NCBI RefSeq assembly: GCF_017592825.1
Contig: NZ_JAGFMD010000001.1
Coordinates: forward strand, 372,001 to 436,000
DNA from: Roseivirga sp. E12
GTDB taxonomy: Bacteria > Bacteroidota > Bacteroidia > Cytophagales > Cyclobacteriaceae
Direction: 5' to 3'
Length of the DNA stretch: 64,000 nucleotides
Below are positions 17,655 to 44,960 of this stretch, piece after piece. Numbering within the stretch: the first letter of the stretch is position 1; each line of letters starts with the position of its first letter. The position numbers and the translations under genes were made by a program. The notes beneath the pieces are model-generated. The model saw nothing but the letters and a program-made list of their open reading frames with translations, did not search any database and was not told the DNA's origin.

Positions 17655-18989
17655 CTAAAATTTAAGAAAGAATGTAGTTCCCCGATTGTTTGAAGATCTA
17701 ACTTCTAGGCTTCCTTTGTGTAAGCGCATGATTTGACGGGAGAGGGAAAGGCCAATACCCGAACCCGAGACTTTTGTGGTATAGAAGGGTACGAATATGT
17801 TTTCTGCAATTTCATCTGGTATACCGGGACCATTATCAGAAATCATGATGGTCGTTTCTTCAGAATCACTTTGGGCCTCTATTCTAATGACAGGGTTTTT
17901 GACTTGCTGAAGAGCTTCTATCGCATTTTTGAACAAGTTGATCAAAACTTGATCTATCAGATCAGAATCAATATTGATTTCTAATCCTTCTTGAAGGTTT
18001 ACCTCCAAGCGTATGGCATGCTGATCGATATCCGCTTTGAATAGATTGGTAAGTCGCCCTATCAAGCTCTCAACCTTCACAGATTGAATATCTGGCTTCG
18101 GAACTTTGGTTAGTTGATCATAAGTCTTCACAAAGTTTGCTAAGCCTTTGCTTCTCGACTCAATGGTTTCGAGTCCACCGACTAAATCTTCTATGCCTTC
18201 ATCGTCTAATTTCGACAAGTCAGGGTTACCAGATTCATCTTTGATCATTTGCAGAATCACATCTGAGAGCGTGGAAATGGGGATAACCGAATTCTTAATT
18301 TCGTGAGTCAGTACTCTGATAAGCTTCTGCCATGATTCGATTTCATTGGCCTCTAATTCACTCTTAATGTCTTGAAAGGAAATTAGCTTAAAGGCTTCAC
18401 CTTGAAGTTTAAATTCTGTGGCTTGAATGGAGAGGTTCATCAATTTGCCGTTCAGACTTAGTTTTACCAATTCCCGCTCCCCGTTAGTAATATTCTTAAT
18501 AGTGTCTAAGAGCTCTCCGGAGATGTGTTCCAAAGATCGAATGGTAGTGATTAAACTTTTGTTAAATAAATCTTGAGCCGCATGATTGACGAGCTGAACA
18601 CGCATTTGATCATCAAAGCAGACTAAAGCCACGCGAACGTGCTCAACAATGGTTTGGAGATAGAGTAGGTTAGAGGCCTTTTCATTTCGGAGGGTCTTTA
18701 GCACTTGGTTGATCTCATGAAAAGCATAATTAAGGTCTTGCTCATTTTTGTGGTGATAGGTATTACTGAAGTCCTGTTGTTTAATGGCGAGCAAAAAGTT
18801 CGCTAATTCACGCCTGGACCGCTCTACATACCGAATTAGGTTGACTAACGTGATGATGAGTCCGAGGATTAACCAAAAAGAGACAAGCCAAAAGTGTGTT
18901 TGCGTAATAACGTAGACGGCCCCATAGCCGAACAGAATGATAAGGGAGATTCTAATGATTACATTCCAGCGGAAGTATTTATACTCCAT
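17655..18989 (-). CDS. NtrB-like membrane sensor histidine kinase
   Basis: 444 residues. Two membrane helices (about 10-28 and 34-53) with almost no periplasmic loop, a PAS-like domain (about 105-205), then HisKA with the H-box LTHEIKNSVIPIS (His near 229). The HATPase has N-box NLFKNAIEAL, DNGPGIP and SGSGIGLSLSRQIM. It should phosphorylate the sigma-54 activator encoded two genes upstream (19524-20897). Its start overlaps the stop of the small exported protein gene by one base (TAATG), so all three form one operon. With so small an external loop it probably senses the membrane itself or needs a partner such as the small exported protein (inference). Confidence 0.9.
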   Translation of the reverse strand: MEYKYFRWNVIIRISLIILFGYGAVYVITQTHFWLVSFWLILGLIITLVNLIRYVERSRRELANFLLAIKQQDFSNTYHHKNEQDLNYAFHEINQVLKTLRNEKASNLLYLQTIVEHVRVALVCFDDQMRVQLVNHAAQDLFNKSLITTIRSLEHISGELLDTIKNITNGERELVKLSLNGKLMNLSIQATEFKLQGEAFKLISFQDIKSELEANEIESWQKLIRVLTHEIKNSVIPISTLSDVILQMIKDESGNPDLSKLDDEGIEDLVGGLETIESRSKGLANFVKTYDQLTKVPKPDIQSVKVESLIGRLTNLFKADIDQHAIRLEVNLQEGLEINIDSDLIDQVLINLFKNAIEALQQVKNPVIRIEAQSDSEETTIMISDNGPGIPDEIAENIFVPFYTTKVSGSGIGLSLSRQIMRLHKGSLEVRSSNNRGTTFFLKF

Positions 18990-19462
18990 TAATCATCAGC
19001 ATTTTTATTGACATAAAAGACAAGAAGGCGAAACTGGGTGTCTATCATTTTTTGACAACCCCATCGCAGCCCATAATTAATATTCATCATGAATTGATCT
19101 GGGGTGGTATAAATAGATGTGGCTGCTTTATAGCCCATCAACTCAGTTTCTAAGCTAATATCATCATTTGAGCCAAAAACATATGCTTCTTTTTGATCTC
19201 TCACATCAAAGAACATATAGCAGTCAGTCTTAGCCAATAAGTACATTCGCACAGTAGTATTTCCTTCCACGCGTAGATAACTGGTCGTTTTATTATTGAC
19301 CCCTTTCAAGGTATAGTCAAACGTACCAAAATGAACCCAGTCAGTGGTTTCATCTTTCATTTGGCTTTCACGAATTAAGTTGGCTACGTCATCGATGGAT
19401 TCTTGACCCAAGAGGGGTTGAATCCACAGCATGAGGATAAGGAAGGCAGTGAGGCTTTTCAT
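18989..19462 (-). CDS. Small exported protein between response regulator and kinase genes
   Basis: 157 residues with signal peptide (MKSLTAFLILMLWIQPLLGQ). The mature 137 residues are a mix of charged and aromatic residues (TDWVHFGTFDYTLKGVNNKT, KTDCYMFFDVRDQKEAYVFG) with no motif I recognise and three scattered cysteines or fewer. It is encoded between the sigma-54 activator (61 bases upstream) and the kinase (1-base overlap). That position suggests a periplasmic accessory that presents the signal to the kinase, but this is inference only. Confidence 0.72.
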   Translation of the reverse strand: MKSLTAFLILMLWIQPLLGQESIDDVANLIRESQMKDETTDWVHFGTFDYTLKGVNNKTTSYLRVEGNTTVRMYLLAKTDCYMFFDVRDQKEAYVFGSNDDISLETELMGYKAATSIYTTPDQFMMNINYGLRWGCQKMIDTQFRLLVFYVNKNADD

Positions 19463-19523: not shown

Positions 19524-20897
19524 CTACAATCCGTATTTAGACATCTTGCGATAAAGGGTGCTTCTGCCAAGTCCCAGAGCCTGAGCGGCTTTAGTGAGGT
19601 TACCTTCAGCGTTTCTTACAGCATTTTGAATGGCTTGTTTTTCCATCTCTTCAATATTGTAATTATCACTGGCAATCACATTCTGAGTTGGTCTCTCGAT
19701 GAGTAGAAAATCTTCTGGTGCCAAAAGGTGCGAATTGGCCATAATCACTGCACGTTCTATGGCATGTTGTAGTTCACGAACATTGCCCGGCCAAGAATAG
19801 CGCCTTAGTTTATTCAATGTGGTCTCGTTGAGGCGCATCTTGTCTTTGCGATACTTCTTGCCATACATTTTCAAAAAGTGCTGAGCAATAGGTTCAATAT
19901 CTTCTGTTCGCTCTCTTAATGGAGGAAGCTTAATTTCTACAGTATTGATTCGATACAAAAGATCTTGCCTAAACTCATTCTCTACGATCATATCATACAG
20001 CGGCATATTGGTAGCACAGATAAGACGGGTATCCAGAGGTGTTATCTTATTCGACCCAACACGAGAAACCTGCTTGAATTGAATTGCCGTTAATAGTTTG
20101 GCCTGCATAGACAAGGATAAGTTGCCTATTTCATCCAAGAAAAGAGTACCATCATTTGCCATTTCAAACCTTCCTGGTCTATCTTCTTTGGCATCGGTAA
20201 AGGCACCTTTAGCATGACCGAATAACTCCGATTCGAAAAGTGATTCGGAAATGGCTCCTAAGTCTACTTTAATAAAATTCTCGTCAACGCGTGGTGATCT
20301 ATTGTGAATAGCTCTGGCAATGAGTTCTTTGCCTGTACCATTTTCACCTAGTATCAAAACGTTGGCATCTGTAACGGCTACCTTATCGATGGCATCAAAG
20401 ACGGGTTTCATAGTAGGACTGATGCTGATGATATCGTCAAACTCGCGTTGCTGATCTCTTACGACAATCTTTTGACTCGTCTTTAATTCCTTAACCTCTT
20501 TCTTTGTCTGGCTAAGCGTAAAAATGGATTGAACAGTCGCGAGTAATTTTTCTTTCTGCCATGGCTTAACCAAAAAGTCAACAGCGCCTTCTTTCATGGC
20601 CTCCACAGCAATGTCTACCTCGCCATAAGCTGTGTTCATCAAAACGTGGGCATCAGGATCTTTTTGTAGAATTCTCTTAAGTAGCTTGATTCCTTCTTTT
20701 CCGCTGGTTAGTCCGTAGGAGAAGTTCATGTCAAGTACAATCACATCGTACTTGTGCTGATTTAGTAGAAAGTCAAGCTTTAGTGGGTCCTTCTCGGTAA
20801 TTACAGTTTCAAAATGCTGTTTGAGGATCATTTTAGCTGTATAGAGTACACCCTGATCATCATCGAGAACGAGAATTTTAGCATCAGCTTTAGACAT
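19524..20897 (-). CDS. NtrC-family sigma-54-dependent response regulator
   Basis: 457 residues. A receiver domain (1-125) has the phospho-acceptor in VIVLDMNFS and the Lys of LVKPWQ. The AAA+ domain (about 160-390) has Walker A GENGTGKE, a sigma-54 contact loop written GAFTDA instead of GAFTGA, Walker B GTLFLDEIGNL, and WPGNVRELQ. A Fis-type HTH (LTKAAQALGLGRSTLYRKM) ends the protein. It should bind paired enhancer sites and open sigma-54 promoters after phosphorylation by the adjacent kinase. It is divergent from the permease array; the 174-bp spacer contains two dyad sites, so it may control both the array and itself. Confidence 0.93.
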   Translation of the reverse strand: MSKADAKILVLDDDQGVLYTAKMILKQHFETVITEKDPLKLDFLLNQHKYDVIVLDMNFSYGLTSGKEGIKLLKRILQKDPDAHVLMNTAYGEVDIAVEAMKEGAVDFLVKPWQKEKLLATVQSIFTLSQTKKEVKELKTSQKIVVRDQQREFDDIISISPTMKPVFDAIDKVAVTDANVLILGENGTGKELIARAIHNRSPRVDENFIKVDLGAISESLFESELFGHAKGAFTDAKEDRPGRFEMANDGTLFLDEIGNLSLSMQAKLLTAIQFKQVSRVGSNKITPLDTRLICATNMPLYDMIVENEFRQDLLYRINTVEIKLPPLRERTEDIEPIAQHFLKMYGKKYRKDKMRLNETTLNKLRRYSWPGNVRELQHAIERAVIMANSHLLAPEDFLLIERPTQNVIASDNYNIEEMEKQAIQNAVRNAEGNLTKAAQALGLGRSTLYRKMSKYGL

Positions 20898-20939
20898 TTC
20901 AGTAATTCAATTGCCAAATTATCCCTTAAGGTATTTATT

Positions 20940-20977
20940 GTGTCAAACTGATACAAGTGCTCGTGTCAATTTGATAC
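20940..20977. promoter_or_regulatory. Paired 15-bp dyads, probable enhancer sites of the sigma-54 activator
   Basis: Two copies of GTGTCA-N3-TGATAC lie at 20940-20954 and 20963-20977, centres 23 bp apart (about two helical turns). The same motif recurs as a pair at 35825-35860 ahead of the last permease. They sit 43-80 bp from the activator's start and 95-132 bp upstream of the first permease, the usual place for NtrC-type enhancer sites. Confidence 0.7.
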
Positions 20978-21071
20978 GAAATTCTTGATAAATGCTTTAA
21001 AATAATCTATAAGTGGTTGATATATAGGGCTGTAGCATAATTGGTATAGTATTGGACTTAGTCCATGCGAT

Positions 21072-23495
21072 ATGCTTAGACATTTGTTCACTTTAAGTAT
21101 CCGTACCGCTTTCAAGCACAAGTGGCTTTCTTTCGTCAACTTACTTGGACTTGGTCTAGGCCTGGCGGCCTTTGTGAGCATCTTTTACTATGTCGAATAT
21201 GAGAACAGCTTCGACAAGTTTCATACAAAGAGCGATCGACTATATAGGGTCGTTATGTCGCGTTATATCAATGACGATTTGGTGAGCATTCGACCTGATA
21301 ACTATCCAGCGTTAACGTCTGTATTGGAAAACAATATTGCTGGTATTGAGTCGGTTGAACCTCTTATGTATAGTTCTAGAGGGGGCACGCTCATAAAGTT
21401 CAATAACGACAATGAGCTGCTAAGAGATGACTTAAAAGTTCTGAACGCATCTGCCGGTTTCTTTAACCTGTTTGATTTGGAGTTAATTGAGGGAGATTAT
21501 CTCAGGCTCGATGAACCGTTCACTGGTTTGATTTCGGATGAACTGGCAGCGTCCATATTTGGAGATGTAAACCCAGTAGGCAAGTCGTGGATTGAAGATG
21601 ATGGACATGAGTACCTTATTCTTGGTGTCTATAGAAAATGGGACCACAATTCTCACTTAGACTTTGATCTGATCAAATCATTTGAAAGCATAGGTGCCAG
21701 ACATCGGTCAACGGATCATCATGATTCATGGGATTGGGGGAGAATGAAAACATATGTGCTATTGGAGGAAGGAGTAGCTAAGACTCTCATTGATGATCAA
21801 ATAAAAGGAATCATTGATGGATTTAAACCCAAACGAGCAGGATTACACTTGAGAGAAGAACTGTTCCTTCAGTCGATAGAGGATATACATTTAAAGTCTG
21901 ATTTCGAAGAAGGTAATTTCTTAGGCAGATATACAACTCAAGTCTATGGGCTCTTAATGGTAGGTTTCATCATAGTGATGCTTGCCTGGATCAATTTCGT
22001 AAACTTTTCCGTTGCCGGAACTCTAGAAAGAGTTAAAACTGTCGGTATTCAGAAGACTTTTGGAGCGAATAATAAATACCTGTTTTACAGACAGTTTTTT
22101 GATGCTTTAATTGTAAATGGACTAGCGCTGCTTTGTGCCTTATGTGTTTGGCAGTTGGTTCAGCCCGCTATAAACACCATTTCCGGTATTCCTTCAAGCC
22201 ATCAACCAGACAGTCACTTTTACCTCACGATTATCCTTATAGTCGCAATAGGCTCAGGCATCAGTGTTTTGGGTCCATTAGGCATTCTAAAAAGAACCAA
22301 AGTAGTTGAAGCTTTGAAAGGGTCAACCTCTGTTAGTCTCACTGGAATCGGTTCACTGAGGAAGGGGATGGTCACTTTTCAATGGGTAGTATCAATCTGC
22401 CTGATCTTGGCGGTTTATACAATCTGGTCACAATCAAATTACATTCATGGAATAGATAGAGGCATTAAAACTTCTGGAATATATGTGGTACAAGAACCAA
22501 GGGATTTTGACTACGATTTATTTGCTTCTAACCCAAGCCTAATTAAGAGCAAATGGCTGGCAATTCCCGGGGTCAAAGCTGTGGCCTCTTCATATGCTAT
22601 ACCGGGTAGCAGGCCATCGGCCTATGAGATTAGGGAATTTGACGCACCTTTATCGGCTAACATTCCTGTTTACGAACATCAGGTCGATGATGCCTTTTTG
22701 CCTTTGTATGGTAATAAACTTGTAGCGGGGCGCAATTTTTCAGAGCAGATTAGTTCTGATGATCACGCTGCTGTTCTTAACCTGTCAGCCGTTAAGGCCT
22801 TATTTGGTAGTGTAGATACCAATGAAGTATTGGGCAAAAGAATCACCAGTCCAGAGAATGAGTATATCCGTACTGTGGTAGGTGTGGTTGAAGACTACTA
22901 TCAGCTCTCACCAGCCGAATCTCAAATCCCTATCAGCTTTGTTCTTGATAGTGAGAGTCGGGGTTATTATTCCATTGCCTTTGAGGGGCAAAACATAACT
23001 CAGCTCATGTCTTCTGTTAAAAGTCAGTTTCAGGAAGTCTTTCCAGGAAATATCTTCCATTCTTTCTTTTTGGATGACTTCTATAATCAACAGTTTGTAA
23101 AAGAAAAGCAAGCAACACAGCTCTTGGGTGGCTTTTCTGTAATTGCCATTGTTCTTAGTCTAATGGGAATATGTGCGTTAACCGTCCTCGACCTTATTAA
23201 ACAAATGAAGGCTTTGAGTATAAGAAAAGTATTGGGAGCCAATCTTAAGTCGCTGTACATAGAAGTTGCAAAAGGGAACATCAAGAGGTTTCTCCTTGCG
23301 GCAATTATAGCCTTCCCTCTGAGTTATGTCTTCCTTGGTAAGTGGCTTTCAAAATTTGCCAATAGAATAGATTTGTCTCTTTTCAAGCTTTCCATTCCTA
23401 TAGTCATTACTGTCGCTGTACTGATAGCTGTATTGTGGGTAGTATCATATAAATCATTGATTGAAAATCCTGTTGACCACCTAAAAGAAGAATAA
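21072..23495 (+). CDS. Orphan FtsX/MacB-type permease, array member 1
   Basis: 807 residues with the duplicated layout of this array: membrane helix (about 20-40), large periplasmic MacB_PCD-like domain, a three-helix FtsX core (about 290-410), a fifth helix near 435, a second periplasmic domain, and a second FtsX core ending in NPVDHLKEE. The first cytoplasmic signature is diverged (KTVGIQKTFGAN), while the second is canonical (KALSIRKVLGAN). No ATP-binding domain is present. As an ABC-type mechanotransmission or export permease it would need an ATPase encoded elsewhere. First gene after the paired dyad sites; 5 bases separate it from member 2. Confidence 0.9.
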   Translation: MLRHLFTLSIRTAFKHKWLSFVNLLGLGLGLAAFVSIFYYVEYENSFDKFHTKSDRLYRVVMSRYINDDLVSIRPDNYPALTSVLENNIAGIESVEPLMYSSRGGTLIKFNNDNELLRDDLKVLNASAGFFNLFDLELIEGDYLRLDEPFTGLISDELAASIFGDVNPVGKSWIEDDGHEYLILGVYRKWDHNSHLDFDLIKSFESIGARHRSTDHHDSWDWGRMKTYVLLEEGVAKTLIDDQIKGIIDGFKPKRAGLHLREELFLQSIEDIHLKSDFEEGNFLGRYTTQVYGLLMVGFIIVMLAWINFVNFSVAGTLERVKTVGIQKTFGANNKYLFYRQFFDALIVNGLALLCALCVWQLVQPAINTISGIPSSHQPDSHFYLTIILIVAIGSGISVLGPLGILKRTKVVEALKGSTSVSLTGIGSLRKGMVTFQWVVSICLILAVYTIWSQSNYIHGIDRGIKTSGIYVVQEPRDFDYDLFASNPSLIKSKWLAIPGVKAVASSYAIPGSRPSAYEIREFDAPLSANIPVYEHQVDDAFLPLYGNKLVAGRNFSEQISSDDHAAVLNLSAVKALFGSVDTNEVLGKRITSPENEYIRTVVGVVEDYYQLSPAESQIPISFVLDSESRGYYSIAFEGQNITQLMSSVKSQFQEVFPGNIFHSFFLDDFYNQQFVKEKQATQLLGGFSVIAIVLSLMGICALTVLDLIKQMKALSIRKVLGANLKSLYIEVAKGNIKRFLLAAIIAFPLSYVFLGKWLSKFANRIDLSLFKLSIPIVITVAVLIAVLWVVSYKSLIENPVDHLKEE

Positions 23496-23500
23496 AGATT

Positions 23501-25909
23501 ATGTTTAGAAACTATTTCAGGACTGCTTTTCGAATTCACGTAAAGAACAAACTTTACTCATTTATCAACTTCATTGGACTGTCTATTGCATTAATGTTAT
23601 GCTTTCTGGTCTATTTATTTGTTCAAGACGAATTCAGCTATGATAACTTTCATAAAAATGGGGATAACCTCTTTTTGTTTCACTCTGTATCATACAAAGT
23701 TGATAATCCGAAGCTAGAAGCAGGTTTTTGGGACACTGAACCTTTGGCCGGAATTCAAAGGGAGTCTACCACCAACTTGCCATTCCTTAAGCTCATAGAG
23801 AGTAGTATACCAGAAATTGAGAGCATCACTCGGATTGAATATCAAAGCCTTACGACCATAAGAGATGGGGAAGAGTCAGGAGAAATGGTGCACTATGTTG
23901 ATCGCAATTTCTTTGATAATTTTTCATACCCGTTTTTGAAAGGCGATTCGGAAGTCGCTTTAGAAACGATCAGCGATGTTGTTATCACTAAGGAGTTTGC
24001 CATTAAGCATTTTGGTTCCATTGAAGTGTTAGGTCAAGACCTGATAGTGCTTGGTGATCCAAACAAGATTTACAAAGTGAAGGGGGTTATAGAATTGCCG
24101 CATAACACAATGCTGGATTTGAATATTATAGCCCCAGTTGAAAATTCTTATTATTATAAAAATCATCAAGACGATTGGAATTACTATGCCATCTCGGCAT
24201 TCTTCAAGCTGAAGGACAATGCACATGTAGATGACATAAACTCAAAAATTAGAAATATATTCTTAGACCAAAAAGATGAGCGGTATTTATCCCTGTCACG
24301 CCAAAACCTCAAACTTGCAGAAGATAATCCGATCATTGAGTTCGACTTAAAGAACGTTTCCGAGGTTTATTTAGATCCGACCTTAAGTTATAATAAGAGC
24401 TCATCTCCGCTATACTCTTACATACTCATTGCAATCTCTTTGGTCATCTTGATCATTGCTAGTATTAATTACTTGTCCATAAGTATAGCTTCTTCAGCAG
24501 GTAGAAGAGTAGAAATTGCTATCAGAAAGGTAGTGGGGGCTAATATTCCACAGCTGAAAATTCAGTTTTATTTGGAAGCACTCACACTCACACTACTGGC
24601 GGTGATAGGTGGTTTTACCCTGATGCAGACTTTTCTTCCAACCTTCAACGAAATGGCTGGCAAGTCATTACTGCCTACGATCGAAGAAAACATTTTACTT
24701 CTGACTTATGGACTCTTCTTTGGCCTGTTTATATCCTTTGTGGCAGGAGGATATCCAGCTCAAATTCTTGCCAGGTTTAAGGTTTTGTCAGGCTTAAAAG
24801 GTCAATCTACAAGTCGCGTGAGTCCGGGACTTATTAAGGGCATGATGATCTTTCAGTTTACACTCTGTCTGGTATTTATTTCCTTCAGTATTGTCATGCA
24901 GAAGCAATTCAAGTATATCAATGATAAGGACTTAGGCTTTGACAAGGAACAAATGGCTATAGTTGGAGGTCTTTGGGGGCAGGCAGAACTGGTGAAGCAG
25001 GAACTCTCTAAATATGCTTCAGTCAAAGAAGCAGGAACCAGTAGTGGCATTTTCACTGGGGGTGGCAGTTTTGGCACTATGGTAGTAGATGGGATTGAAC
25101 ATAGAATTAGACGTGTTCGCGTAGGTGAGGAGTTTATGAGGACGCTTGATATTACCTTTATTGACAAAGAAGGATTTCCTGCGCCTGAACGCCATGAGTT
25201 GGAAGAGGGTAAGGACTACGTTAATGAAACTTATTTCAATCTAATTGTAAGTGACTCTGCTAGGTTTAGACTCTATAAAGATCGAATAGCGGGAGTTGTT
25301 AAGGACTTTCATTTTGAATCGCTACAGACAGCTATATACCCAATCTCTTTCCGATTGGCTAAGCCTGAAGTGCTTTCCACTCTTTTTGTGAAACTAGAAG
25401 CTGGAATGACATCAGAAGGAGTCGAAAGCATCAAAGAAGCATACGAAAATATCACAGGTGAACCATTAAAGGAAGTAAGGTTTATGGATGCCTATTTGGC
25501 TTCACGATACAAGGATAGCCAACGTTGGCAACGGATTATTGACGCTTCTACAACCCTTGGAATTCTAATTGCCAGCATAGGTTTATTTGGTATGACGGGA
25601 ATAAACCTTGCTAATCGTATGAAAGAAATCAGTATCAGGAAGGTCCTAGGTGCAGATTTCAATCAAATTGCTTTGTTACTAAACCGACAGACACTGTTGC
25701 TAATTCTTGTGGCCGCTTTGATTTCGGTACCCATCTCTTATCAATTGACTACTCAGTGGCTCGAGGCATTTGCTTACCATGTGAACGTGTCAATAGAGAT
25801 ATTCATTTTCTCGGTATTAGTCTTATTCGGAATCTCATTACTCACGGTTTTATTTCATTCCATTAAATCGGTTAAAACAAATCCAGCAGAAATTTTACGC
25901 AGCGAATAA
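23501..25909 (+). CDS. Orphan FtsX/MacB-type permease, array member 2
   Basis: 802 residues with the same eight-helix, two-FtsX layout. Family signatures are VEIAIRKVVGANI in the first half and KEISIRKVLGADF in the second; it ends in TNPAEILRSE. The second periplasmic domain looks shorter than in the others, around the GIFTGGGSFGTMVVDG stretch, and retains the VKDFHFESLQ motif shared by the array. It starts 5 bases after member 1 and ends 8 bases before member 3, so it lies in a continuous transcript. Confidence 0.9.
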   Translation: MFRNYFRTAFRIHVKNKLYSFINFIGLSIALMLCFLVYLFVQDEFSYDNFHKNGDNLFLFHSVSYKVDNPKLEAGFWDTEPLAGIQRESTTNLPFLKLIESSIPEIESITRIEYQSLTTIRDGEESGEMVHYVDRNFFDNFSYPFLKGDSEVALETISDVVITKEFAIKHFGSIEVLGQDLIVLGDPNKIYKVKGVIELPHNTMLDLNIIAPVENSYYYKNHQDDWNYYAISAFFKLKDNAHVDDINSKIRNIFLDQKDERYLSLSRQNLKLAEDNPIIEFDLKNVSEVYLDPTLSYNKSSSPLYSYILIAISLVILIIASINYLSISIASSAGRRVEIAIRKVVGANIPQLKIQFYLEALTLTLLAVIGGFTLMQTFLPTFNEMAGKSLLPTIEENILLLTYGLFFGLFISFVAGGYPAQILARFKVLSGLKGQSTSRVSPGLIKGMMIFQFTLCLVFISFSIVMQKQFKYINDKDLGFDKEQMAIVGGLWGQAELVKQELSKYASVKEAGTSSGIFTGGGSFGTMVVDGIEHRIRRVRVGEEFMRTLDITFIDKEGFPAPERHELEEGKDYVNETYFNLIVSDSARFRLYKDRIAGVVKDFHFESLQTAIYPISFRLAKPEVLSTLFVKLEAGMTSEGVESIKEAYENITGEPLKEVRFMDAYLASRYKDSQRWQRIIDASTTLGILIASIGLFGMTGINLANRMKEISIRKVLGADFNQIALLLNRQTLLLILVAALISVPISYQLTTQWLEAFAYHVNVSIEIFIFSVLVLFGISLLTVLFHSIKSVKTNPAEILRSE

Positions 25910-25917
25910 TCATAGCC

Positions 25918-28320
25918 ATGCTCAAAAACTATTTCAATACCACAGTCAGATCGATAGGAAAGAATAAGCATTTTTCTTTCATCAACACAATAGGCTTGGC
26001 CATTGGGATGGCCGCTGTATTGGTAATTTTCCAATACGTGACATTCGAGTATAGTTTTGATAGATTTCACGAGAATAAGGATCAAATATATCGTTTGAAC
26101 CTAGGTCGACTTGATACTGGTGTGCCATCTAGTGCTACAAGTGCTGGAGTAATGGGGCCTATTTTGAAGGATAATTATGCTGGGATTAAATCTTTTGTCC
26201 GGTTAAGACAATTTCCTTCCTTGGTCGCTCATGAAGATAAAAGCATTTATGAGGAACACTTCTATTTTACGGACTCATCATTCTTTGAGGTTTTCTCTTT
26301 CAGGCTTTTAGAAGGTGATAAGCAGAATGTGCTACAAGAACCTAATACCATCGTCTTAACGGAGTCTTCTGCGCTTAGACTTTTTGGCAAGACAAGTGAA
26401 TTGATTGGTGAGTTGATCGAGGTTGATAACAGAATGTCATATAAGATCGATGGAGTAGTGGAAGATCCTCCTAAGAACTCTCATTTTAGCTTTTCTCATT
26501 TAGCATCCATTGCCTCCGTTGCTAATCACTACAATACACCCCTACGTACCTACCAATTCAATGAATGGTATGCTCATTATGTGCATACCTATTTTCAATT
26601 AGAGGAGAATGTAGATGTTGAGGCTCTGGGAGAATTGATCACTGATGCATCCAAAAAGCATTCAAACCCTGAGTACTATGAACTATATGGCACCAATATG
26701 GGGCTTTACTTACAAAGCTTGTCGGACATTCACCTGAACCCAATGTTCGGAGAACTAGGAGTTTCAGGTGATATAGACAACCTCTATATTCTGGCAAGTG
26801 CCGGAATCATAATTTTGCTCCTAGCCATGATCAATTACATCAATTTATCGACAGCACAGTCTATGAAGAGAGGTAAAGAGATGGCTTTAAGAAAGACATT
26901 AGGTGCCTCTAGAAATCAGCTAATCATGCAGTTCTTAATCCATTCCGTATTGCTTAGTCTTCTGTCTTTTGTTCTTGCTATTACGCTCTTGCAAACTCTA
27001 CAAGGATCATTGGTTCAGTTGCTAGGTTTGCCTGAGGAAGCTTTCTCTCTCTTTTATCAGAACTACTTGTTGGAAAGCATACTGTTGGTCTTGTCTATAG
27101 GATTACTCTCAGGGATTTATCCTGCGATTCGACTTTCATCTTCACAGCCAGCACACTTGTTTAGAGAGCAATCCTCTGGCAAACAAAAGTTTGTATTTAG
27201 GAAAGTTGTCATTTTTCTTCAATTCTCAATTTCAATAGCGCTGATATCCAGTACGATCATCGTTTTTTCTCAGGTTCAGTTCATGCAGCAACAGGAGTTG
27301 GGGCTTGATACCGAGCAAATACTACTATTACCTACATATGGCAATGATAATATTCATGATTCATATGATGTGTTTAGGCAGAGTTTAGAGGAGTTTTCAG
27401 ATGTCCAATCTTCAACCCTTGCCGAACTGTCCCCGGGGGAAAGCATTTTTGGGATAATCTCAAAGTTTGAGGGAATGGAGGGTAGTAAGTCTTTCGCGAC
27501 CATTGGTGTAGACTATGACTATCTAAAAACCTATGATATTGAGTTGATTGCAGGCAGAGATTTCTCGAGAGAAATTGTTACTGATACTGAAGAACGAGTA
27601 ATCATTAATAAAACCCTATGTGAAGAGCTGGGTTGGTCGGCTACAGAGGCTATCGGCAAAACCTTTGACTTTGGGGGAGATGGGACAACTCCTGGTTTCG
27701 TAATAGGAGTGGTTGACGACTTTCATTTTAATTCCTTAAAACAATCTATTCGACCAATTGCCATGGTCATTGCTCCAAATTTCTATCAGAAAATTGCCAT
27801 CAAGTTCAATTCGACAGACTTCTCCAGAACGATAGAAAACATTAGAGCTTCCTGGAACCAGGTTTATCCTCAATGGCCATTTGATTACAGCTTTGTAGAT
27901 GTAGAGTTTGATAATCAGTACAGCTCAGACCAAAGGTTTGGTAACCTGTTTCTCCTTTTCACCTTCTTAGGACTATTCATCGGAGCATTGGGAGTTTATG
28001 GTTTGGTTCAACTCATAACAGAATATAGAAGACGCGAATTAAGCATCAGGAAAGTACTTGGTGCCGAATTATGGAGGTTAGTCAGCTTACTTTCAAATGA
28101 GTATGTGAGTTTAATGGGATTGGCCTTTTTACTCAGTGCGCCATTGGTCTACTTTTTTATGAGCGAGTGGTTGACGGATTTTGCCTTTAAAGTTCAGATA
28201 AGCTGGTGGATGATCGGGTTGTCATTATTGGCCATAGCTTTTATCTGCTTCTGCACCATAGGATTGAAGATTTACCAAACAGCTAAATCTAACCCTGTAG
28301 ATCACCTTAGATATGAATAA
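25918..28320 (+). CDS. Orphan FtsX/MacB-type permease, array member 3
   Basis: 800 residues. The N-terminus MLKNYFNTTVRSIGKNK is almost the same as that of the 26-codon remnant at 28363. Signatures are KEMALRKTLGAS and RELSIRKVLGAE, with VVDDFHFNSLKQS in the second periplasmic domain and the terminal NPVDHLRYE. Eight predicted membrane helices, no ATPase domain. The 155 bp downstream contain the remnant gene before member 4. Confidence 0.9.
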   Translation: MLKNYFNTTVRSIGKNKHFSFINTIGLAIGMAAVLVIFQYVTFEYSFDRFHENKDQIYRLNLGRLDTGVPSSATSAGVMGPILKDNYAGIKSFVRLRQFPSLVAHEDKSIYEEHFYFTDSSFFEVFSFRLLEGDKQNVLQEPNTIVLTESSALRLFGKTSELIGELIEVDNRMSYKIDGVVEDPPKNSHFSFSHLASIASVANHYNTPLRTYQFNEWYAHYVHTYFQLEENVDVEALGELITDASKKHSNPEYYELYGTNMGLYLQSLSDIHLNPMFGELGVSGDIDNLYILASAGIIILLLAMINYINLSTAQSMKRGKEMALRKTLGASRNQLIMQFLIHSVLLSLLSFVLAITLLQTLQGSLVQLLGLPEEAFSLFYQNYLLESILLVLSIGLLSGIYPAIRLSSSQPAHLFREQSSGKQKFVFRKVVIFLQFSISIALISSTIIVFSQVQFMQQQELGLDTEQILLLPTYGNDNIHDSYDVFRQSLEEFSDVQSSTLAELSPGESIFGIISKFEGMEGSKSFATIGVDYDYLKTYDIELIAGRDFSREIVTDTEERVIINKTLCEELGWSATEAIGKTFDFGGDGTTPGFVIGVVDDFHFNSLKQSIRPIAMVIAPNFYQKIAIKFNSTDFSRTIENIRASWNQVYPQWPFDYSFVDVEFDNQYSSDQRFGNLFLLFTFLGLFIGALGVYGLVQLITEYRRRELSIRKVLGAELWRLVSLLSNEYVSLMGLAFLLSAPLVYFFMSEWLTDFAFKVQISWWMIGLSLLAIAFICFCTIGLKIYQTAKSNPVDHLRYE

Positions 28321-28362
28321 TAATCAACGGAACATTAAAAAGGACAGAAGAAATTAGGAACA

Positions 28363-28443
28363 ATGCTCAAGAACTATTTTAAAACAACACTACGGTCAAT
28401 CATCATCAAGAATCCTTCAGATGTATTAAGAATAGAAAATTAA
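28363..28443 (+). pseudogene. Remnant of an eighth permease: start and end of the gene joined in frame
   Basis: A 26-codon ORF runs from ATG 28363 to TAA 28441-28443. Residues 1-12 are MLKNYFKTTLRS, matching the first residues of member 3 (MLKNYFNTTVRS, 10 of 12). Residues 16-25 are KNPSDVLRIE, matching the conserved last residues of every permease here (NPVDHLRYE, NPADSLRYE, NPAEILRSE). Everything between, about 770 codons, is missing. The join falls in a run ATCATCATC, which suggests deletion by slippage between short repeats. The start, frame and stop are all intact, so a 26-residue peptide could still be made. Confidence 0.85.
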
Positions 28444-28475
28444 AAGGTCATCAAAAACTCTAAAAACAACTAAAC

Positions 28476-30923
28476 ATGTATAAAAACTATATAAAAACTA
28501 CTCTCAGATCGCTCAAGAAAAACAGACTGTTTTCTCTGATTAATATTTTCGGCCTTGCTGCTGGTATTGCAGCCTCGGTATTCATACTTCAGTACGCATT
28601 TTTCGAACTTAACTTCGACCGGTTTCATAAGAATTCTTCTAACGTCTATCGCGTAATGAACGAACGATTTGAAGGCGAGCGTTTGATTCAGAGGGGTCAG
28701 ATTACTTACTCAGCGGTAGGCAAGCAAATGTTTGAAGATTACCCTGAAGTAGTCGACTATTTCACGCTCAGCACTTTCGGTCAAAATGTAATTGAGCATA
28801 ATCAGAATCCAGTAAAAATACCTTTTAGCATCTTGGTAGAGCCTAGCTTCTTCGAGATGTTTTCATTTAATGTGATTGCAGGCAATCCCAAAGAAGTGTT
28901 CGATCAGAAGCGTAAAATGGTAGTCTCTGAAGACGTAGCAAAACGTCTATTTCAATCAGATGAAGGCAATTGGGATAAGTATATAGGAGAGATCATTAGA
29001 ATGGGTTCCAGCAGGATGGAATACGAATTAGTGGGTATTCTGGAAGATGCACCTCCTAACTCCAGCCTTCAATATGAAGTCATCTTATCGAGAGCTACTA
29101 CTTTCGATTTTTCTCCACAGGCTGAGTTTGGCTGGCTTGGATCAGATTACTTCCATTATGTGCAACTAGATGAGCGTGCTGACCCAGCGTCTTTGGTTCA
29201 AAAGTTTGAAGACTTCAGTAACAAGTATTTCAAAGGGAATCAGGTTACGGGGACTTACGAGAAGTTTCACCTGCAGCCCTTGGAGGATGTATATCTATAT
29301 TCAGACTATGAGTATGAGAACCATCAGACTTCAGATGGTAGCATGGTTTGGATTCTAATTCTGATTGCCGCTTTTATCTTGATAATGGCCTGGATTAACT
29401 ATATCAATCTTACCACTTCTAAGTCATTGCAACGTGCCAAAGAGGTAGGGGTAAGAAAGGTAGTGGGGGCAACCAAAAAACAGTTGGTTATCCAGTTCTT
29501 AATGGAGTCCCTCACGCTGAATTTTCTTGCTTTCATTTTGGCAATAACTCTGGTTCAAGTTTTTCAAAATTCCTTCAATTTGCTTGTAGAGAGAGAATTA
29601 GGCCTTATTGATTTTTTGTCTTCACAGCTTTATGGTACTCCGGTATTCCTTTGGTTGTTTGGTACGCTGCTTCTAGGATCTTTTCTTTCAGGTGTTTATC
29701 CAGCTTTTATTCTTGCTGCTTTTAATCCTTCACAATCTCTCAAGGGTCAGTTTGCTAAAAGCTCCAAAGGCCAGCTTTTAAGAAAGACACTCGTAGTATT
29801 TCAGTTTGCCCTTTCAATTGCATTAATAGCCGGGACAGTTCTGGTGTATCAACAAACGACTTTCATGCGAAATCAAGACTTAGGTGTGAACATGGAACGC
29901 GTCTTGACAGTAGAGGGCCCTGCGTTAACTAATATGGATACCACGTTTGTCGAAAGAATTCAACAGTTCTCGAACAAGCTTGAACAAAATTCACGAATTG
30001 AAAAAGTAGGTACTTCAGCGTCTGTTTTAGGTAGTCGTTTGCCGCGGACCTTTAATGTGAGAACTAGCCCTGAAGGTGAGGGAACTATGCTAAATAGAAT
30101 CAATGCAAACTTTGGTTTTCTGGATGTATACAAGATTGAAATCATAGCTGGTCGAAATTTTATACCAAGTGATCATCACAGAGAATTCAGCCTTATCAAA
30201 GGAGTGATTTTGAATGAAAAGGCATCTCAACTGTTAGGCTTTGAGAGTGCTCAGGACGCTGTTAATAAGAAACTGACCTTCTTTGGTCGCGACTGGGAAA
30301 TAATAGGAGTAACTGCTGATTTCCATCATCGCTCGTTAAAGTCTTCTATTGAACCATTAATGGTTTCTCCATTTTATAATGGGGGTGATGACACCTACCA
30401 CATCCGTATTGATGATTCGAACCTTCCAGAGACTATCGAATACATCTCACAAACATTTGATGAGTTTTTCCCTAATGACATCTTTGAATATAACTTCATG
30501 GATGCTCGGTTCGATAATCAGTACAAGGCAGATCAGCAGTTTGGTAAAATCTTCAACATTTTCTCTTTGCTGGCCATTGCAATTGCTTGTTTGGGCCTAT
30601 TCGGTCTAGCGGGTTATACGGCAATCCAGAAGACCAAGGAAATAGGTATTAGGAAGGTGTTAGGTGCATCGATAACCAATATTTTGCATATGCTGTCAAA
30701 AGAGTTCTTCCTACTTATCCTTCTGGCAAGTGTCATTGGCTTACCATTGATATTCTTAGGTGCTCGACTTTGGTTGGCAGGTTATGAGTATCAAACGGAC
30801 ATTGGTACAGCGTTCTTCTTGTTGCCAGTAATGGTTGTACTGTTTGTGGCAGCAACGATCATTTTTGGGCAGAGTATGAAAACCGCGCAGTCCAACCCAG
30901 TAAAATCACTCAGACAAGATTAA
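28476..30923 (+). CDS. Orphan FtsX/MacB-type permease, array member 4
   Basis: 815 residues. The first FtsX core has AWINYINLTTSKSLQRAKEV, then GVRKVVGATKKQL; the second has KEIGIRKVLGAS; the end is NPVKSLRQD. Its first half resembles members 5 and 7 (shared INLTTSK/INLSTSK/INLSTAR and QFLMES stretches) more than members 1-3, suggesting a later duplication. It follows the remnant ORF by 32 bases and precedes member 5 by 17. Eight helices and two periplasmic domains; no ATP-binding domain. Confidence 0.9.
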   Translation: MYKNYIKTTLRSLKKNRLFSLINIFGLAAGIAASVFILQYAFFELNFDRFHKNSSNVYRVMNERFEGERLIQRGQITYSAVGKQMFEDYPEVVDYFTLSTFGQNVIEHNQNPVKIPFSILVEPSFFEMFSFNVIAGNPKEVFDQKRKMVVSEDVAKRLFQSDEGNWDKYIGEIIRMGSSRMEYELVGILEDAPPNSSLQYEVILSRATTFDFSPQAEFGWLGSDYFHYVQLDERADPASLVQKFEDFSNKYFKGNQVTGTYEKFHLQPLEDVYLYSDYEYENHQTSDGSMVWILILIAAFILIMAWINYINLTTSKSLQRAKEVGVRKVVGATKKQLVIQFLMESLTLNFLAFILAITLVQVFQNSFNLLVERELGLIDFLSSQLYGTPVFLWLFGTLLLGSFLSGVYPAFILAAFNPSQSLKGQFAKSSKGQLLRKTLVVFQFALSIALIAGTVLVYQQTTFMRNQDLGVNMERVLTVEGPALTNMDTTFVERIQQFSNKLEQNSRIEKVGTSASVLGSRLPRTFNVRTSPEGEGTMLNRINANFGFLDVYKIEIIAGRNFIPSDHHREFSLIKGVILNEKASQLLGFESAQDAVNKKLTFFGRDWEIIGVTADFHHRSLKSSIEPLMVSPFYNGGDDTYHIRIDDSNLPETIEYISQTFDEFFPNDIFEYNFMDARFDNQYKADQQFGKIFNIFSLLAIAIACLGLFGLAGYTAIQKTKEIGIRKVLGASITNILHMLSKEFFLLILLASVIGLPLIFLGARLWLAGYEYQTDIGTAFFLLPVMVVLFVAATIIFGQSMKTAQSNPVKSLRQD

Positions 30924-30940
30924 ACTTAAAACTCAAAATC

Positions 30941-33358
30941 ATGGTCATCTCGAACATTCGTTTCGCTTTTAGGCAACTCAATAAAAACAAAGTGTTTACC
31001 ATCGTCAATGTGGTGGGGCTGGCGCTTTCAATGGTTGCTTGCCTCTTGATCTTTAAGTATGTCAGTTTTGAAAAAAGCTATGATGCCTATCATGAAGAAG
31101 CTGAAGATATCTATAGGATATACCGAATAGCCGATGGTGAAGATCCAGACGATGGTGTGGCTTCAATCTTTCCTGGTATAACACCATTGCTTAAGAGAGA
31201 AATCCCCGAATTTGAGTATGTAACTAGGGTTATTGGTTCCGATAAAATGTTTCAATCCTTCGCTTTTACACATTTTTCGAGTGAGGGGAAAGCCAATACC
31301 TTCAACATGCCAAAGGCATTTTTTGCCGATCATGATGCACTTGACATTTTCAAACTCAACTGGCTTGAAGGACAGAATTCGCGTTCCTTACAAAATCCTA
31401 ACGAGCTGGTCATTTCACAGTCTTTCGCAAAGCGATTCTTTGGGGATGCAGAAGCAGTAGGTCAGGTATTAAGGTTCAAGAACATGGAAGTCGATTACCT
31501 GGTGACAGGTGTATTTGAGAATGTTCCCGAAAACAGTCACTTTAAATTCAATGTCCTGTGCTCATTCAGTTCACTTCCAGAAGAGTGGGAGCTAGATACG
31601 TCATTTGGTTGGGGTAACTTCTATACCTATGCCAAGCTGGTAGACAATTCGGACTTGGTTTCTTTAGAACCGAAAATGAATGATTTAATCAGTCAGCACG
31701 GAGAGACGTGGTATAAGGAAGAGGGCATTTATTTTAAATTTCAAAACATACCGGATATTCATTTAACGTCACATCACAGTTACGAATTAGAGGCCAACGG
31801 GAATAAATCTACTGTGCTGTTTCTTTCCATTATCGGAGTTTTCATTATGGTGATTGCCTGGGTCAACTACATTAATTTGAGCACATCAAAGTTGGTAGAA
31901 AGAGCAAAGGAGGTAGGCATTCGGAAGGTAATGGGCGGCTATCGCAGACAGTTGATTGGTCAGTTTTTGTCTGAGTCTTTGTTGGTCAATCTATTTGCAC
32001 TGGTTTTGGCGTTGACAGCCCTTCAGCTTAGCCGAAACTTTTTCGAATCATTGATCGGAATCGAAGTCAACTATTTTTCAGGTAACGATCTCAACGTGAC
32101 TTTAGGATTTGCTGTGCTGTTCTGCCTTGGCTCTTTGCTTTTCGGTTTATATCCGGCTGTCTTGTTCTCAGGTCAGAAAATAAGTAGTGTTTTAAAGGGA
32201 AAGTCGAAGGTGAGCAAGTCTGGGCTTCAATTGAGAAGAGGCTTAACTGTCTTCCAATATGTGATTGCTGTAGTACTCATTCTGGGTACAGTAGTGGTTA
32301 AGTCTCAGTTAGAATTTATTCAAAAAGAGTCCCTAGGAATGAATATTGACAGGACTTTGATTGTGAAAAAACCATTTGTCGAACAAGAGAATAGGTCTTC
32401 TAGTAAATCAACCTTTATCAATAAGGTGAGACAGATGAGCGATATCAGCGCTATAAGTGCCTCCTCAGAAATTCCAGGTTATGAAATTTCTAGAATGAGA
32501 TGGGTTGCCTTAGGACCTGATGCTGATGATAAATCTCTTTATGCCAAAGATCTGGCGATAGATGATTCTTTTGTCGATTTATATCAAATTGAAGTGCTGT
32601 ACGGACGGAATTTTTCAACAGATTTTGCTGATTCAACTTCAGTAATTTTGAGTCTTTCGGCTGCAGAACATCTGTTGGGATCAGAGGACTTAGAGAAATG
32701 GATTAACCAAACCATCTATTATGAAACGGCTCCTTATCGCTTGGTAGGAATAGTCGATGACATTAGTCAAGAATCGCTAAAGGCAAATGCAAAGCCTCAT
32801 ATATATACGTATCGCGATCGTGATAAATTTTACTCGATTAAGGTCGATGCTTCTGATGTTGGCGCTACAATTGAACGAGTACAAAGTGCATTTAATATGA
32901 GTTTTGCTTCTAGCCATTTCGACTATTTCTTTTTGGATGCTTATTTTGATAGACAGTACAAGGCAGATCGCCTATTTGGACAGATCTTTAGTTTTTTCTC
33001 ATTATTAGCGATTGTTATTACCTCCCTAGGCTTATTCGGACTATCTCTTTATAACATCGGTCAGCGATCTCGAGAGGTTAGTATTAGAAAGGTACTTGGT
33101 GCTTCTGTCAATAGTATATTCTATTTATTGACCAAGGAATACATACTATTGATGCTATTAGCATCGATAATCGCTATGCCAATTGGGTACTACTTCGTAG
33201 ATCAATGGCTCAATGCCTTTGCCAGTAGAACGACATTATCGTGGACGCTTTTCCTACTTCCCGTCCTAATTGTTTCTGTACTAACTCTTCTGACGGTTTT
33301 GTATCAGGTAATAAAGACTGTGTTTGCCAACCCTGCCGATTCACTTCGGTACGAATAG
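30941..33358 (+). CDS. Orphan FtsX/MacB-type permease, array member 5
   Basis: 805 residues. Signatures are KEVGIRKVMGGYRRQ in the first core, where the usual GA is GG, and REVSIRKVLGAS in the second. The end is NPADSLRYE. The layout is the array standard: N-terminal helix, MacB_PCD-like domain, FtsX core, helix, second periplasmic domain, FtsX core. It starts 17 bases after member 4. The 44-bp gap to member 6 has no visible promoter or terminator, so transcription probably continues. Confidence 0.9.
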   Translation: MVISNIRFAFRQLNKNKVFTIVNVVGLALSMVACLLIFKYVSFEKSYDAYHEEAEDIYRIYRIADGEDPDDGVASIFPGITPLLKREIPEFEYVTRVIGSDKMFQSFAFTHFSSEGKANTFNMPKAFFADHDALDIFKLNWLEGQNSRSLQNPNELVISQSFAKRFFGDAEAVGQVLRFKNMEVDYLVTGVFENVPENSHFKFNVLCSFSSLPEEWELDTSFGWGNFYTYAKLVDNSDLVSLEPKMNDLISQHGETWYKEEGIYFKFQNIPDIHLTSHHSYELEANGNKSTVLFLSIIGVFIMVIAWVNYINLSTSKLVERAKEVGIRKVMGGYRRQLIGQFLSESLLVNLFALVLALTALQLSRNFFESLIGIEVNYFSGNDLNVTLGFAVLFCLGSLLFGLYPAVLFSGQKISSVLKGKSKVSKSGLQLRRGLTVFQYVIAVVLILGTVVVKSQLEFIQKESLGMNIDRTLIVKKPFVEQENRSSSKSTFINKVRQMSDISAISASSEIPGYEISRMRWVALGPDADDKSLYAKDLAIDDSFVDLYQIEVLYGRNFSTDFADSTSVILSLSAAEHLLGSEDLEKWINQTIYYETAPYRLVGIVDDISQESLKANAKPHIYTYRDRDKFYSIKVDASDVGATIERVQSAFNMSFASSHFDYFFLDAYFDRQYKADRLFGQIFSFFSLLAIVITSLGLFGLSLYNIGQRSREVSIRKVLGASVNSIFYLLTKEYILLMLLASIIAMPIGYYFVDQWLNAFASRTTLSWTLFLLPVLIVSVLTLLTVLYQVIKTVFANPADSLRYE

Positions 33359-33402
33359 TCACAAATTTATTTATAGCAAGTCTCTAAGCTAATAGCACTC
33401 TC

Positions 33403-35817
33403 ATGATCAAGAATTACTTTTCTATAGTTCTCAGAAGTCTCAAGAAGAAGAAAGTCTTTGCTTTTATTAATATCTGTGGCTTAGCGATTGGTATTTGTGC
33501 CTTCCTGCTGATTTTAGATTTTATTTCGTTCGAAAATAGCTTCGATAATTTTCATCAGAAGGGCGATAGAATTTATCGTGTTCAATATGAAAAGATCAGT
33601 GCCGATCGTCATGACAAAAGTGCTGGTTTGGCGGCAGGTGGTGGTCCAGCATTAATGGAAGCCTACCCGGAGGTTGAGACTTTCAGTAAAATATGGGGTA
33701 CAAACCATATGGTTAACCTCATAAAAGTCAATGATGAACCCTTTGAGTCAGAGAAACTCTTTTATGCAGATAGTAGTTTCTTTGAGTTATTTGACTTTGA
33801 CTTTCTGGCAGGCAATAGAATGACTGTTCTTGATGAGGTTAACTCAATTGTCATCACCGAAAGTGCTGCTGAGAGGTTTTTTGGTAGAAAAGATGTGTTA
33901 AATGAGGCAGTCTATCTTCAGAATGGGATGACCAACGTAGTGGTCAAGGTAACCGGTATTTTGAAAGACTTACCTGCAAATACGCATTTCGATTTTGAAG
34001 TATTAGTGTCCTTCGAGTCACTGGTAAATGCAACGGAGACGGCTGCCAATTCTTTCGGATGGAATGCCTTTCCAACCTATCTTTTGCTGAAGGAAGGAGT
34101 GGACCCTTCAATACTAGAAGCTAAGTTTCCTGATTTTATCGAAACGCACTATCAAAATGCAATTGGTCAAGGCATTCAACCTCTTTATAAGCTTAGATCA
34201 CTAGAAGACATTTACCTGCATTCAAATGTACGGTTCGAGGTTGGCCCAACTGGCAGTTATCAGGTACTTCAGATTCTGACAGGAATTTCTGTCTTCATCA
34301 TCATCCTTGCTTACTTTAATTACATCAACATTACCACTGCTCAGGCCTTAGATAGAGCTAAAGAAGTAGGAGTGAGAAAGGCAGCAGGCGCGAATAAAGC
34401 ACAGTTATTCACACAGTTTATGGTGGAGTCGTTCTTCTTTAATTTTTTAAGCATGGCAGCAGGGTTCACCCTGATGCAAGTCTCCAAGCCTTTATTCACA
34501 GAGGTCATAGGGAAGGAATTTCCCATTGGTCTCACATTCAGTACTGCTCAATTTTTAGCACTCATAATCATTCTTGTAATGGGCACCTTGTTCTCTGGGC
34601 TTTACCCAGCTTGGATTCTGTCTAAACTTAAGACCTCTGAAGTGTTACGAGGAAAGACAAATGTACGGGGAAGGTCAGGGTTTTTAAGAAAGAGCTTAGT
34701 GGTGGTACAGTTTAGCATCTTATGTTTTCTTTTGGTAGGTAGTCTCGCTGTTAGAGAGCAAATTCAATATATGCTCAATGCGGATTTGGGCTTCGACCCA
34801 AATCAAGTTTTGGTAATCAAAGGTCCAGCTGCCGGTGGAAACACCAATTTGGACACCAAGCTACAGAGCTTCATGGCAAGGCTAGAGTCAACTCCTCAGG
34901 TTATTGAAGCTTCTCATTCGACTGTTGTTCCTGGAAAAGAAATCTCCTGGATTAATAACGATGTAAGGAGGGAAGGGGCATCAGAAAGCGAGTCTGCTTC
35001 TATCCATTTTATCGGAGTAAGTGATAACTATCTCAATACACTGGACTTAAAACTACTAGCAGGTAGAAATTTTGATAAAGAAATCTTGAGTGACACAGGT
35101 AGCATTCTGTTGAGCAATTCAGCCTTAAAAGCGCTTGGGTTCACTTCACCTGAGCAAGCCATTGATCAGAAAGTAATGACCTTCGGAGAAAGACGTGTTA
35201 TTGGTGTAGTCGATGATTATATGCAAGAATCGTTTAAGAAGGGCTATAATGCTACAGCTTACCTGTTGGCACCTTGGGCCAATAATTATTTCAGTCTAAA
35301 GATTTCTGCAGGCAATGCACAGGGTGTAACAGAGTCTTTGGAGAAAATTTACCGAGAACATTTTGCCGGTAATCCATTCGAATATTTCTTCCTAGATGAG
35401 TTCTTTCAAAGACAGTTCGAGGAAGACAGGACATTTGCTAAAACCTTCAACCTATTTACGCTTTTGGGCATTTGGATCTCCTGCCTGGGGCTTATCGGTC
35501 TCACGCTTCATGCTGTATCACTGAGAAGAAAGGAGATAGGTATTAGAAAGGTATTAGGTGCAAAACTTCTAAATGTTGTTGTTCTAGTCTCAGGCAAGCT
35601 TATTTACCCTATTGTCATTGCAGTAGTACTGAGTATCCCAGTCACCTATTATTTGGTAAACCAATGGCTACAGAATTACACTTTTGCTACTAACTTGGGA
35701 CCTACGGTGTTTATTCTTCCGGTTTTAGCGATAGTTCTGCTTACCTTAATAACTACTTCAATACTTTCGATCAGAACGGGGCTCAAAAACCCTGTAGATT
35801 CGCTACGGTATGAGTGA
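33403..35817 (+). CDS. Orphan FtsX/MacB-type permease, array member 6
   Basis: 804 residues. Signatures are KEVGVRKAAGANKAQL and KEIGIRKVLGAK; the end is NPVDSLRYE. The second periplasmic domain has GVVDDYMQESFKKG in place of the DFHxxSL pattern of its relatives. Eight membrane helices, no ATPase domain. It is followed by a 143-bp gap that contains the second pair of dyad sites and a sigma-54 promoter, so member 7 can be expressed separately. Confidence 0.9.
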   Translation: MIKNYFSIVLRSLKKKKVFAFINICGLAIGICAFLLILDFISFENSFDNFHQKGDRIYRVQYEKISADRHDKSAGLAAGGGPALMEAYPEVETFSKIWGTNHMVNLIKVNDEPFESEKLFYADSSFFELFDFDFLAGNRMTVLDEVNSIVITESAAERFFGRKDVLNEAVYLQNGMTNVVVKVTGILKDLPANTHFDFEVLVSFESLVNATETAANSFGWNAFPTYLLLKEGVDPSILEAKFPDFIETHYQNAIGQGIQPLYKLRSLEDIYLHSNVRFEVGPTGSYQVLQILTGISVFIIILAYFNYINITTAQALDRAKEVGVRKAAGANKAQLFTQFMVESFFFNFLSMAAGFTLMQVSKPLFTEVIGKEFPIGLTFSTAQFLALIIILVMGTLFSGLYPAWILSKLKTSEVLRGKTNVRGRSGFLRKSLVVVQFSILCFLLVGSLAVREQIQYMLNADLGFDPNQVLVIKGPAAGGNTNLDTKLQSFMARLESTPQVIEASHSTVVPGKEISWINNDVRREGASESESASIHFIGVSDNYLNTLDLKLLAGRNFDKEILSDTGSILLSNSALKALGFTSPEQAIDQKVMTFGERRVIGVVDDYMQESFKKGYNATAYLLAPWANNYFSLKISAGNAQGVTESLEKIYREHFAGNPFEYFFLDEFFQRQFEEDRTFAKTFNLFTLLGIWISCLGLIGLTLHAVSLRRKEIGIRKVLGAKLLNVVVLVSGKLIYPIVIAVVLSIPVTYYLVNQWLQNYTFATNLGPTVFILPVLAIVLLTLITTSILSIRTGLKNPVDSLRYE

Positions 35818-35824
35818 TTGATTC

Positions 35825-35860
35825 GTGTCATCATGAAACAAAAGTGTGTCATCATGATAC
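35825..35860. promoter_or_regulatory. Second pair of 15-bp dyads, probable enhancer sites
   Basis: GTGTCA-TCA-TGAAAC at 35825-35839 (one mismatch) and GTGTCA-TCA-TGATAC at 35846-35860 (exact) repeat the motif found at 20940-20977. Centres are 21 bp apart, two helical turns. They lie about 55-90 bp upstream of the -24/-12 promoter at 35915, right for a sigma-54 activator. Confidence 0.75.
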
Positions 35861-35914
35861 GCTTTTTTTAATCCATTATATCTTAAGTGTTTGAAAATGA
35901 GTGTTATAGTGTTT

Positions 35915-35930
35915 TGGTACAGGCATTGCA
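35915..35930 (+). promoter_or_regulatory. Sigma-54 (-24/-12) promoter for permease 7
   Basis: TGGTACAGGCATTGCA matches TGGCACRNNNNTTGCW at all but one position (T for C), with GG at 35916-35917 and GC at 35928-35929 separated by exactly 10 bases. Transcription would start near 35941. That excludes the upstream TTG at 35937 as the start of permease 7 and supports ATG 35961. Confidence 0.82.
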
Positions 35931-42999: not shown

Positions 43000-43021
43000 G
43001 ATTTGTGTCTTTTTGAGTCGA

Positions 43022-44728: not shown

Positions 44729-44960
44729 ATTTAGCAATTTAGTTATGATTTGTTCAAGGGGATAATATACTCCAAAGGTGCTGTCATTTCAAAGTCAAAT
44801 ATGAGAGTGGTTCAATAATGATTTTGGGGGTAAACTGATTGTCTCGTCAGTGCACAAATATCAATTCAAAGGCAACACTTATCAATTGATGAGAAGCTTT
44901 GAGGATGGTATTGTTTCAAAGCCCTAAATTGGGACAGCAACCACTAAACTAAGCTTGACA

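Follow-up and report, generated by a model that had tools for sequence, protein, structure and literature searches.

Response regulators that activate sigma-54 promoters, such as NtrC, ZraR and AtoC, share a layout in which a receiver domain is followed by an AAA+ domain and a Fis-type helix-turn-helix (HTH). The activator described here, encoded in a 64,000-nucleotide stretch of the marine bacterium Roseivirga sp. E12 that we analysed (the window), has this same layout, and as in those systems paired dyads precede the predicted start by approximately 87-120 bp and a kinase gene adjoins. It differs from them in the sequence of the dyads, in their 21-23 bp spacing, and in having GAFTDA in place of GAFTGA. 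The enhancer core of Escherichia coli NorR, GTCA-N3-TGAC, resembles the dyads found here, a likeness of sequence that serves as a lead only. Multiple dyads act as an assembly scaffold for NorR (PMC2941729), which differs in having a GAF sensor, three sites and another target. Regulons of activators and their upstream activator sites have been reconstructed in Desulfovibrio vulgaris (PMC4641369) and Clostridiales (PMC6615313), and there, as here, each activator group has its own inverted repeat near the sigma-54 promoters of neighbouring operons, although the phyla, targets and motifs are others. Activator-specific dyads are the norm in other phyla, and motif similarity follows the DNA-binding domain (PMC6615313). 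For Bacteroidia, the portion of a 2025 genome-scale prediction on which we draw reports FtsX-like/COG0577 permeases as enriched under sigma-54 promoters; sigma-54 control of the permease family found here had thus already been predicted, and that portion names no activator or enhancer site for the permeases (PMC12316311). The type of switch that we propose is textbook; it is mapped anew at this locus and is conserved across the genus. New here are a dyad inside the regulator's own candidate promoter and, in two species, a dyad within a terminator-like hairpin.

Table 1. Coordinates of the regulator locus, permease genes and associated sites in the window
Feature	Position	Strand	Remarks
Membrane histidine kinase	17655-18989	-	HEIKN box visible in the sequence; predicted to partner the regulator
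157-aa protein	18989-19462	-	Between regulator and kinase genes; without Pfam or NCBIfam match
Sigma-54 activator, response regulator type	19524-20897	-	Predicted binder of the dyads; receiver, AAA+, Fis HTH; GAFTDA loop
Candidate housekeeping promoter of regulator gene	20926-20956	-	TTG at 20956-20954, 20-bp spacer, TACCTTAA at 20933-20926
Pair 1, dyad 1	20940-20954	+	GTGTCAAACTGATAC; exact; candidate upstream activator site, also within the regulator's own candidate promoter
Pair 1, dyad 2	20963-20977	+	GTGTCAATTTGATAC; exact; 23 bp from dyad 1
Candidate sigma-54 -24/-12 of permease 1	21042-21057	+	TGGTATAGTATTGGAC; weaker; register and distance kept in congeners
Permease 1	21072-23495	+	MacB_PCD x2, FtsX x2; resembles ADOP and DarB families
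Permease 2	23501-25909	+	Permease 1 family
Permease 3	25918-28320	+	Permease 1 family
Permease 4	28476-30923	+	Permease 1 family
Permease 5	30941-33358	+	Permease 1 family
Permease 6	33403-35817	+	Permease 1 family
Pair 2, dyad 1	35825-35839	+	GTGTCATCATGAAAC; one mismatch to GTGTCA-N3-TGATAC
12-pair hairpin and T run	35842-35870	+	Encloses pair 2 dyad 2; possible terminator of upstream operon; fold -12.0 kcal/mol
Pair 2, dyad 2	35846-35860	+	GTGTCATCATGATAC; exact; 21 bp from dyad 1
Sigma-54 -24/-12 promoter of permease 7	35915-35930	+	TGGTACAGGCATTGCA; perfect match
Permease 7	35961-38417	+	Monocistronic, behind pair 2

A sequence-only reading of this DNA had singled out two pairs of 15-bp dyads of the form GTGTCA-N3-TGATAC, placed them at the first and last of a row of permease genes, and proposed that they bind the activator encoded next door and define a local regulon. 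All four dyads are where that reading put them, with a single mismatch in one, and its within-pair spacings are borne out when measured start to start. Seven permeases stand in a row, with pair 1 preceding the first and pair 2 preceding the seventh, as had been said. The element is better described as the palindrome GTNTCA-N3-TGANAC. Within the window we found 10 matches to the motif at up to 2 mismatches, against a shuffle mean of 4.35, and 8 of these 10 are the four dyads read on both strands. An exact match to the 12-base motif turns up three times across the genome (4,701,246 bases, 35 contigs), every time in these pairs, where approximately 0.66 occurrences are expected from base composition. 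When dyads were searched for as pairs (20 fixed bases, at most 3 mismatches), the genome yielded pair 1 at 23 bp, pair 2 at 21 bp and only one further match, with 3 mismatches; the reversed pattern, used as a control, gave 0 matches. The genome-wide scan that the earlier reading had suggested therefore returns a distribution that is not random, with pairs confined to two permease promoters in this genome. Single dyads with one mismatch do occur elsewhere in it, and one of these, at C11:781380 near a paralogous regulator, was set aside as chance; it lies inside a permease coding match (C11:780748-781437).

Each pair is followed, in register, by a -24/-12 element and then by a permease gene, the gap being 65 bp for pair 1 and 55 bp for pair 2. 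The permease 7 element is the sole perfect match to TGGYACRNNNNTTGCW in the window and ends 31 bp ahead of the permease 7 ATG, while the -12 element of the permease 1 candidate reads GA, not GC. Orthologous loci preserve GG-N10-G in register, at a constant 63-66 bp past the 5' pair, and genus-wide the distances from pair to -24 cluster at 55-56 or 63-66 bp, one helical turn apart. Because orthologous loci share descent, they do not count as independent cases of conservation, and the p-values of the Fisher and Rayleigh tests overstate the significance. Sigma-54 itself is encoded elsewhere in the genome (rpoN; TIGR02395, 425.8 bits; G000:C4:2510-3931). What looked like another sigma-54 site, at approximately 55 bp on the regulator strand, proved to be the AKILV codons of the receiver domain and no promoter, and a scan for consensus promoters and terminators, which showed no excess over shuffles, was given no weight as evidence.

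Every one of the 15 same-genus orthologous regulator loci that we read (this one and 14 others) retains the 5' pair, with a spacing of 23 bp in 14 loci and 22 bp in one, while the surrounding intergenic region has diverged. The pair is also present in G012, where the regulator is split over contigs. In G015, the sole other near-complete genome that is without the pair, relatives of the regulator are only 59% identical. Outside the genus, the pair adjoins relatives of the regulator in G027, G029, G034, G054 and G075 at a spacing of 23-24 bp; a good -24/-12 element was looked for near the G027 pair and not found. G001, G002, G011 and G014 retain the second pair with its 21-bp spacing, ahead of a permease with a similar N-terminus, and in them the -24 follows at 55 or 65 bp. 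We also inspected other 21-bp pairs with at most 2 mismatches across the genus, and all but two of those inspected stand 55-66 bp ahead of a -24/-12 element and the start of an FtsX/MacB-type permease. Several of them (G007:C95, G008:C15, G010:C64 and G010:C6) are on contigs other than the regulator's, and the regulon is therefore not always local in the genus. The proposal of a local regulon holds in the genome studied here; in some congeners, matching sites also precede unlinked permease genes. Two weak 21-bp pairs, on G010:C161 and G008:C1, were without a permease nearby. These two (4988-5023 and 154110-154145, respectively) are a similar dyad pair common to two congeners.

The domains of the regulator are those of a sigma-54 activator: a receiver (PF00072, 64.7 bits, residues 8-122) in which D56, as read in the sequence, is the candidate phospho-Asp, an AAA+ sigma-54 interaction domain (PF00158, 216.8 bits, residues 157-322) and a C-terminal Fis-type HTH (PF02954, 49.3 bits, residues 415-455). 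Its GAFTGA loop is present as the variant GAFTDA (residues 231-236). This variant is listed as activation-competent in Desulfovibrio activators (PMC4641369). The best relatives of solved structure are NtrC-family and ZraR chains, and relatives 80-88% identical are found in named Roseivirga genomes. The protein scores below the NCBIfam cut-offs for AtoC (373.9 of 714 bits), ZraR (324.2 of 760) and NtrC (337.6 of 558.6), and reaches no NCBIfam equivalog cut-off.

Presence of the pair follows the recognition helix of the regulator. Where the helix reads GR(S/T)TLYRKM, the pair is upstream in 20 of 20 distinct loci (21 rows, with L052 and L135 being one locus), of which 15 trained the matrix and 5, outside the genus, are independent; where it reads TR(A/S)SLYRRL, the pair is upstream in 0 of 10. 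Among 45 upstream regions of paralogous regulators in the genus the best pair score was 11 bits, versus at least 32 bits at true loci, and the pair was looked for and absent at 5 paralogous regulator loci in the same genome, at least one of which has another dyad pair instead. The top paralogue scores come from regulators whose helix, GRTTLYRKL, is the most similar, and this group has a conserved pair of its own, TGTTYC-N5-GRAACA, at 23 bp. The co-variation of dyad and helix across species bears only indirectly on binding by the activator.

We consider it very probable that the dyad pairs are sites of the neighbouring two-component regulator, from which it would activate the permeases at sigma-54 promoters. 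The earlier proposal that the activator next door binds the dyads is supported by the confinement of the pairs, the -24/-12 elements downstream of both, the presence of rpoN, the domains of the activator and the tracking of its recognition helix. With high confidence, then, we read the pairs as enhancers of this activator, driving permeases 1-6 and permease 7 in a classical two-component sigma-54 switch. In such a switch the kinase would phosphorylate the activator, dimers of which would bind both dyads of a pair, on the same face of the DNA at a distance of two helical turns, and assemble into an AAA+ ring. Looping would bring the ring to the sigma-54 polymerase at the -24/-12 elements of permeases 1 and 7, and permeases 1-6, which we infer to form a single transcript, would be switched on together with permease 7.

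Many operators are inverted repeats of 15 bp, and at least six more activators related to this one are encoded in the genome. The dyads could instead belong to another regulator, be it one of the activator type or a dimeric repressor from some other family, with the neighbouring activator using other sites. We regard this as improbable, however, as the pair tracks the neighbouring activator's helix and neighbourhood, is absent at the loci of its paralogues, and stands at a fixed phase and distance from sigma-54 promoters. Still harder to credit is a pair that is chance or copied DNA, a nonfunctional promoter segment duplicated along with the permease genes: the permeases are tandem paralogues and the two pairs do resemble one another, but the spacings (23 versus 21 bp) and the flanks differ, and each pair is conserved separately across species.

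The second dyad of pair 2 calls for a separate weighing. Its 12-pair stem, with a loop of 3 and a T run, would suit an intrinsic terminator of the permease 1-6 operon, and the hairpin and T residues are also present in the closest congener, G001. It is nonetheless very unlikely that this dyad is primarily a terminator hairpin and not a protein site, since G002 and G014 retain the dyad pair and its spacing without the T run, and neither pair 1 nor the unlinked pairs have a terminator-like context. Both roles at once are conceivable, and under the enhancer reading this dyad possibly doubles as a terminator, in a secondary role, in the E12 genome and G001.

Dyad 1 of pair 1 occupies the spacer that separates the -33 box from the -7 box in the regulator's candidate promoter. 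In the regulator direction, 11 of the 15 loci have TTG-N20-TAnnTT at the corresponding position, one more has it with a 21-bp spacer, and TAnnTT itself is present in all 15. In flavobacteria, TAnnTTTG serves as the -7 box for the main sigma factor (PMC9723704). Since dyad 1 fills this spacer, activator bound there should repress its own gene, and from the position of the dyad such autorepression is likely.

These assignments provide one of many uncharacterised Bacteroidota sigma-54 activators with a predicted site, promoters and target genes, and the site definition is directly testable. The switch also offers a handle on the inducers of a large family of duplicated permeases in these bacteria. 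Paralogous activators of one genome, each beside FtsX/MacB-type permeases and with differing enhancers, form a natural set for following the divergence of helix and site. Four more activator-kinase pairs in the E12 genome (L079, L080, L081 and L082) are each divergent from clusters of approximately 800-aa permeases, and their conserved upstream elements differ from locus to locus. A generic palindrome search at paralogue loci gave a clear result only in the L082 group and in most of the L079 group. Other elements are suggestive only: in the L080 group a 23-bp direct repeat, TGTAT...AAACA, is a better description than a palindrome, about half of the L079 group has GTCCG-N4-CGGAC repeats at 20 bp, and the L081 group has a strong palindrome, TGCCCA-N4-TGGGCA, with a weak partner. 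At L078 (4958-8406, G000:C22), an operon of DarC-like adaptor, DarD-like ATPase and TolC without a permease faces a regulator paralogue, and the permease clusters that we looked at are without an ATPase gene. Roseivirga has at least six paralogous kinase-activator pairs; most of them face clusters of duplicated permeases without ATPases, at least some have an enhancer pair of their own, and the one at G000:C22 faces the permease-less operon. One could imagine that these modules make up a single exporter core that is loaded with signal-specific permeases, enhancer sequence separating the modules; we think this unlikely.

The seven permeases are approximately 800 aa each, lie on the strand opposite to the regulator, and all have duplicated MacB_PCD and FtsX domains. 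Permease 7 falls below curated cut-offs (ADOP, 274.4 of 622.3 bits; DarB, 101.2 of 700) and matches in domain architecture alone. The 155-bp gap ahead of permease 4 (28321-28475) has neither a dyad pair nor a -24/-12 element; it holds a decayed permease start, ATGCTCAAGAACTATTTTAAAACAACACTACGG, left over from a gene copy that has been lost between permeases 3 and 4. The genome as a whole has at least 150 MacB_PCD domain matches, and its duplicated FtsX/MacB-type permeases number roughly 100 in 4.7 Mb. Elsewhere in the window, at 40289-44737 on the (-) strand, three genes side by side are of the amidohydrolase family, to which they score weakly.
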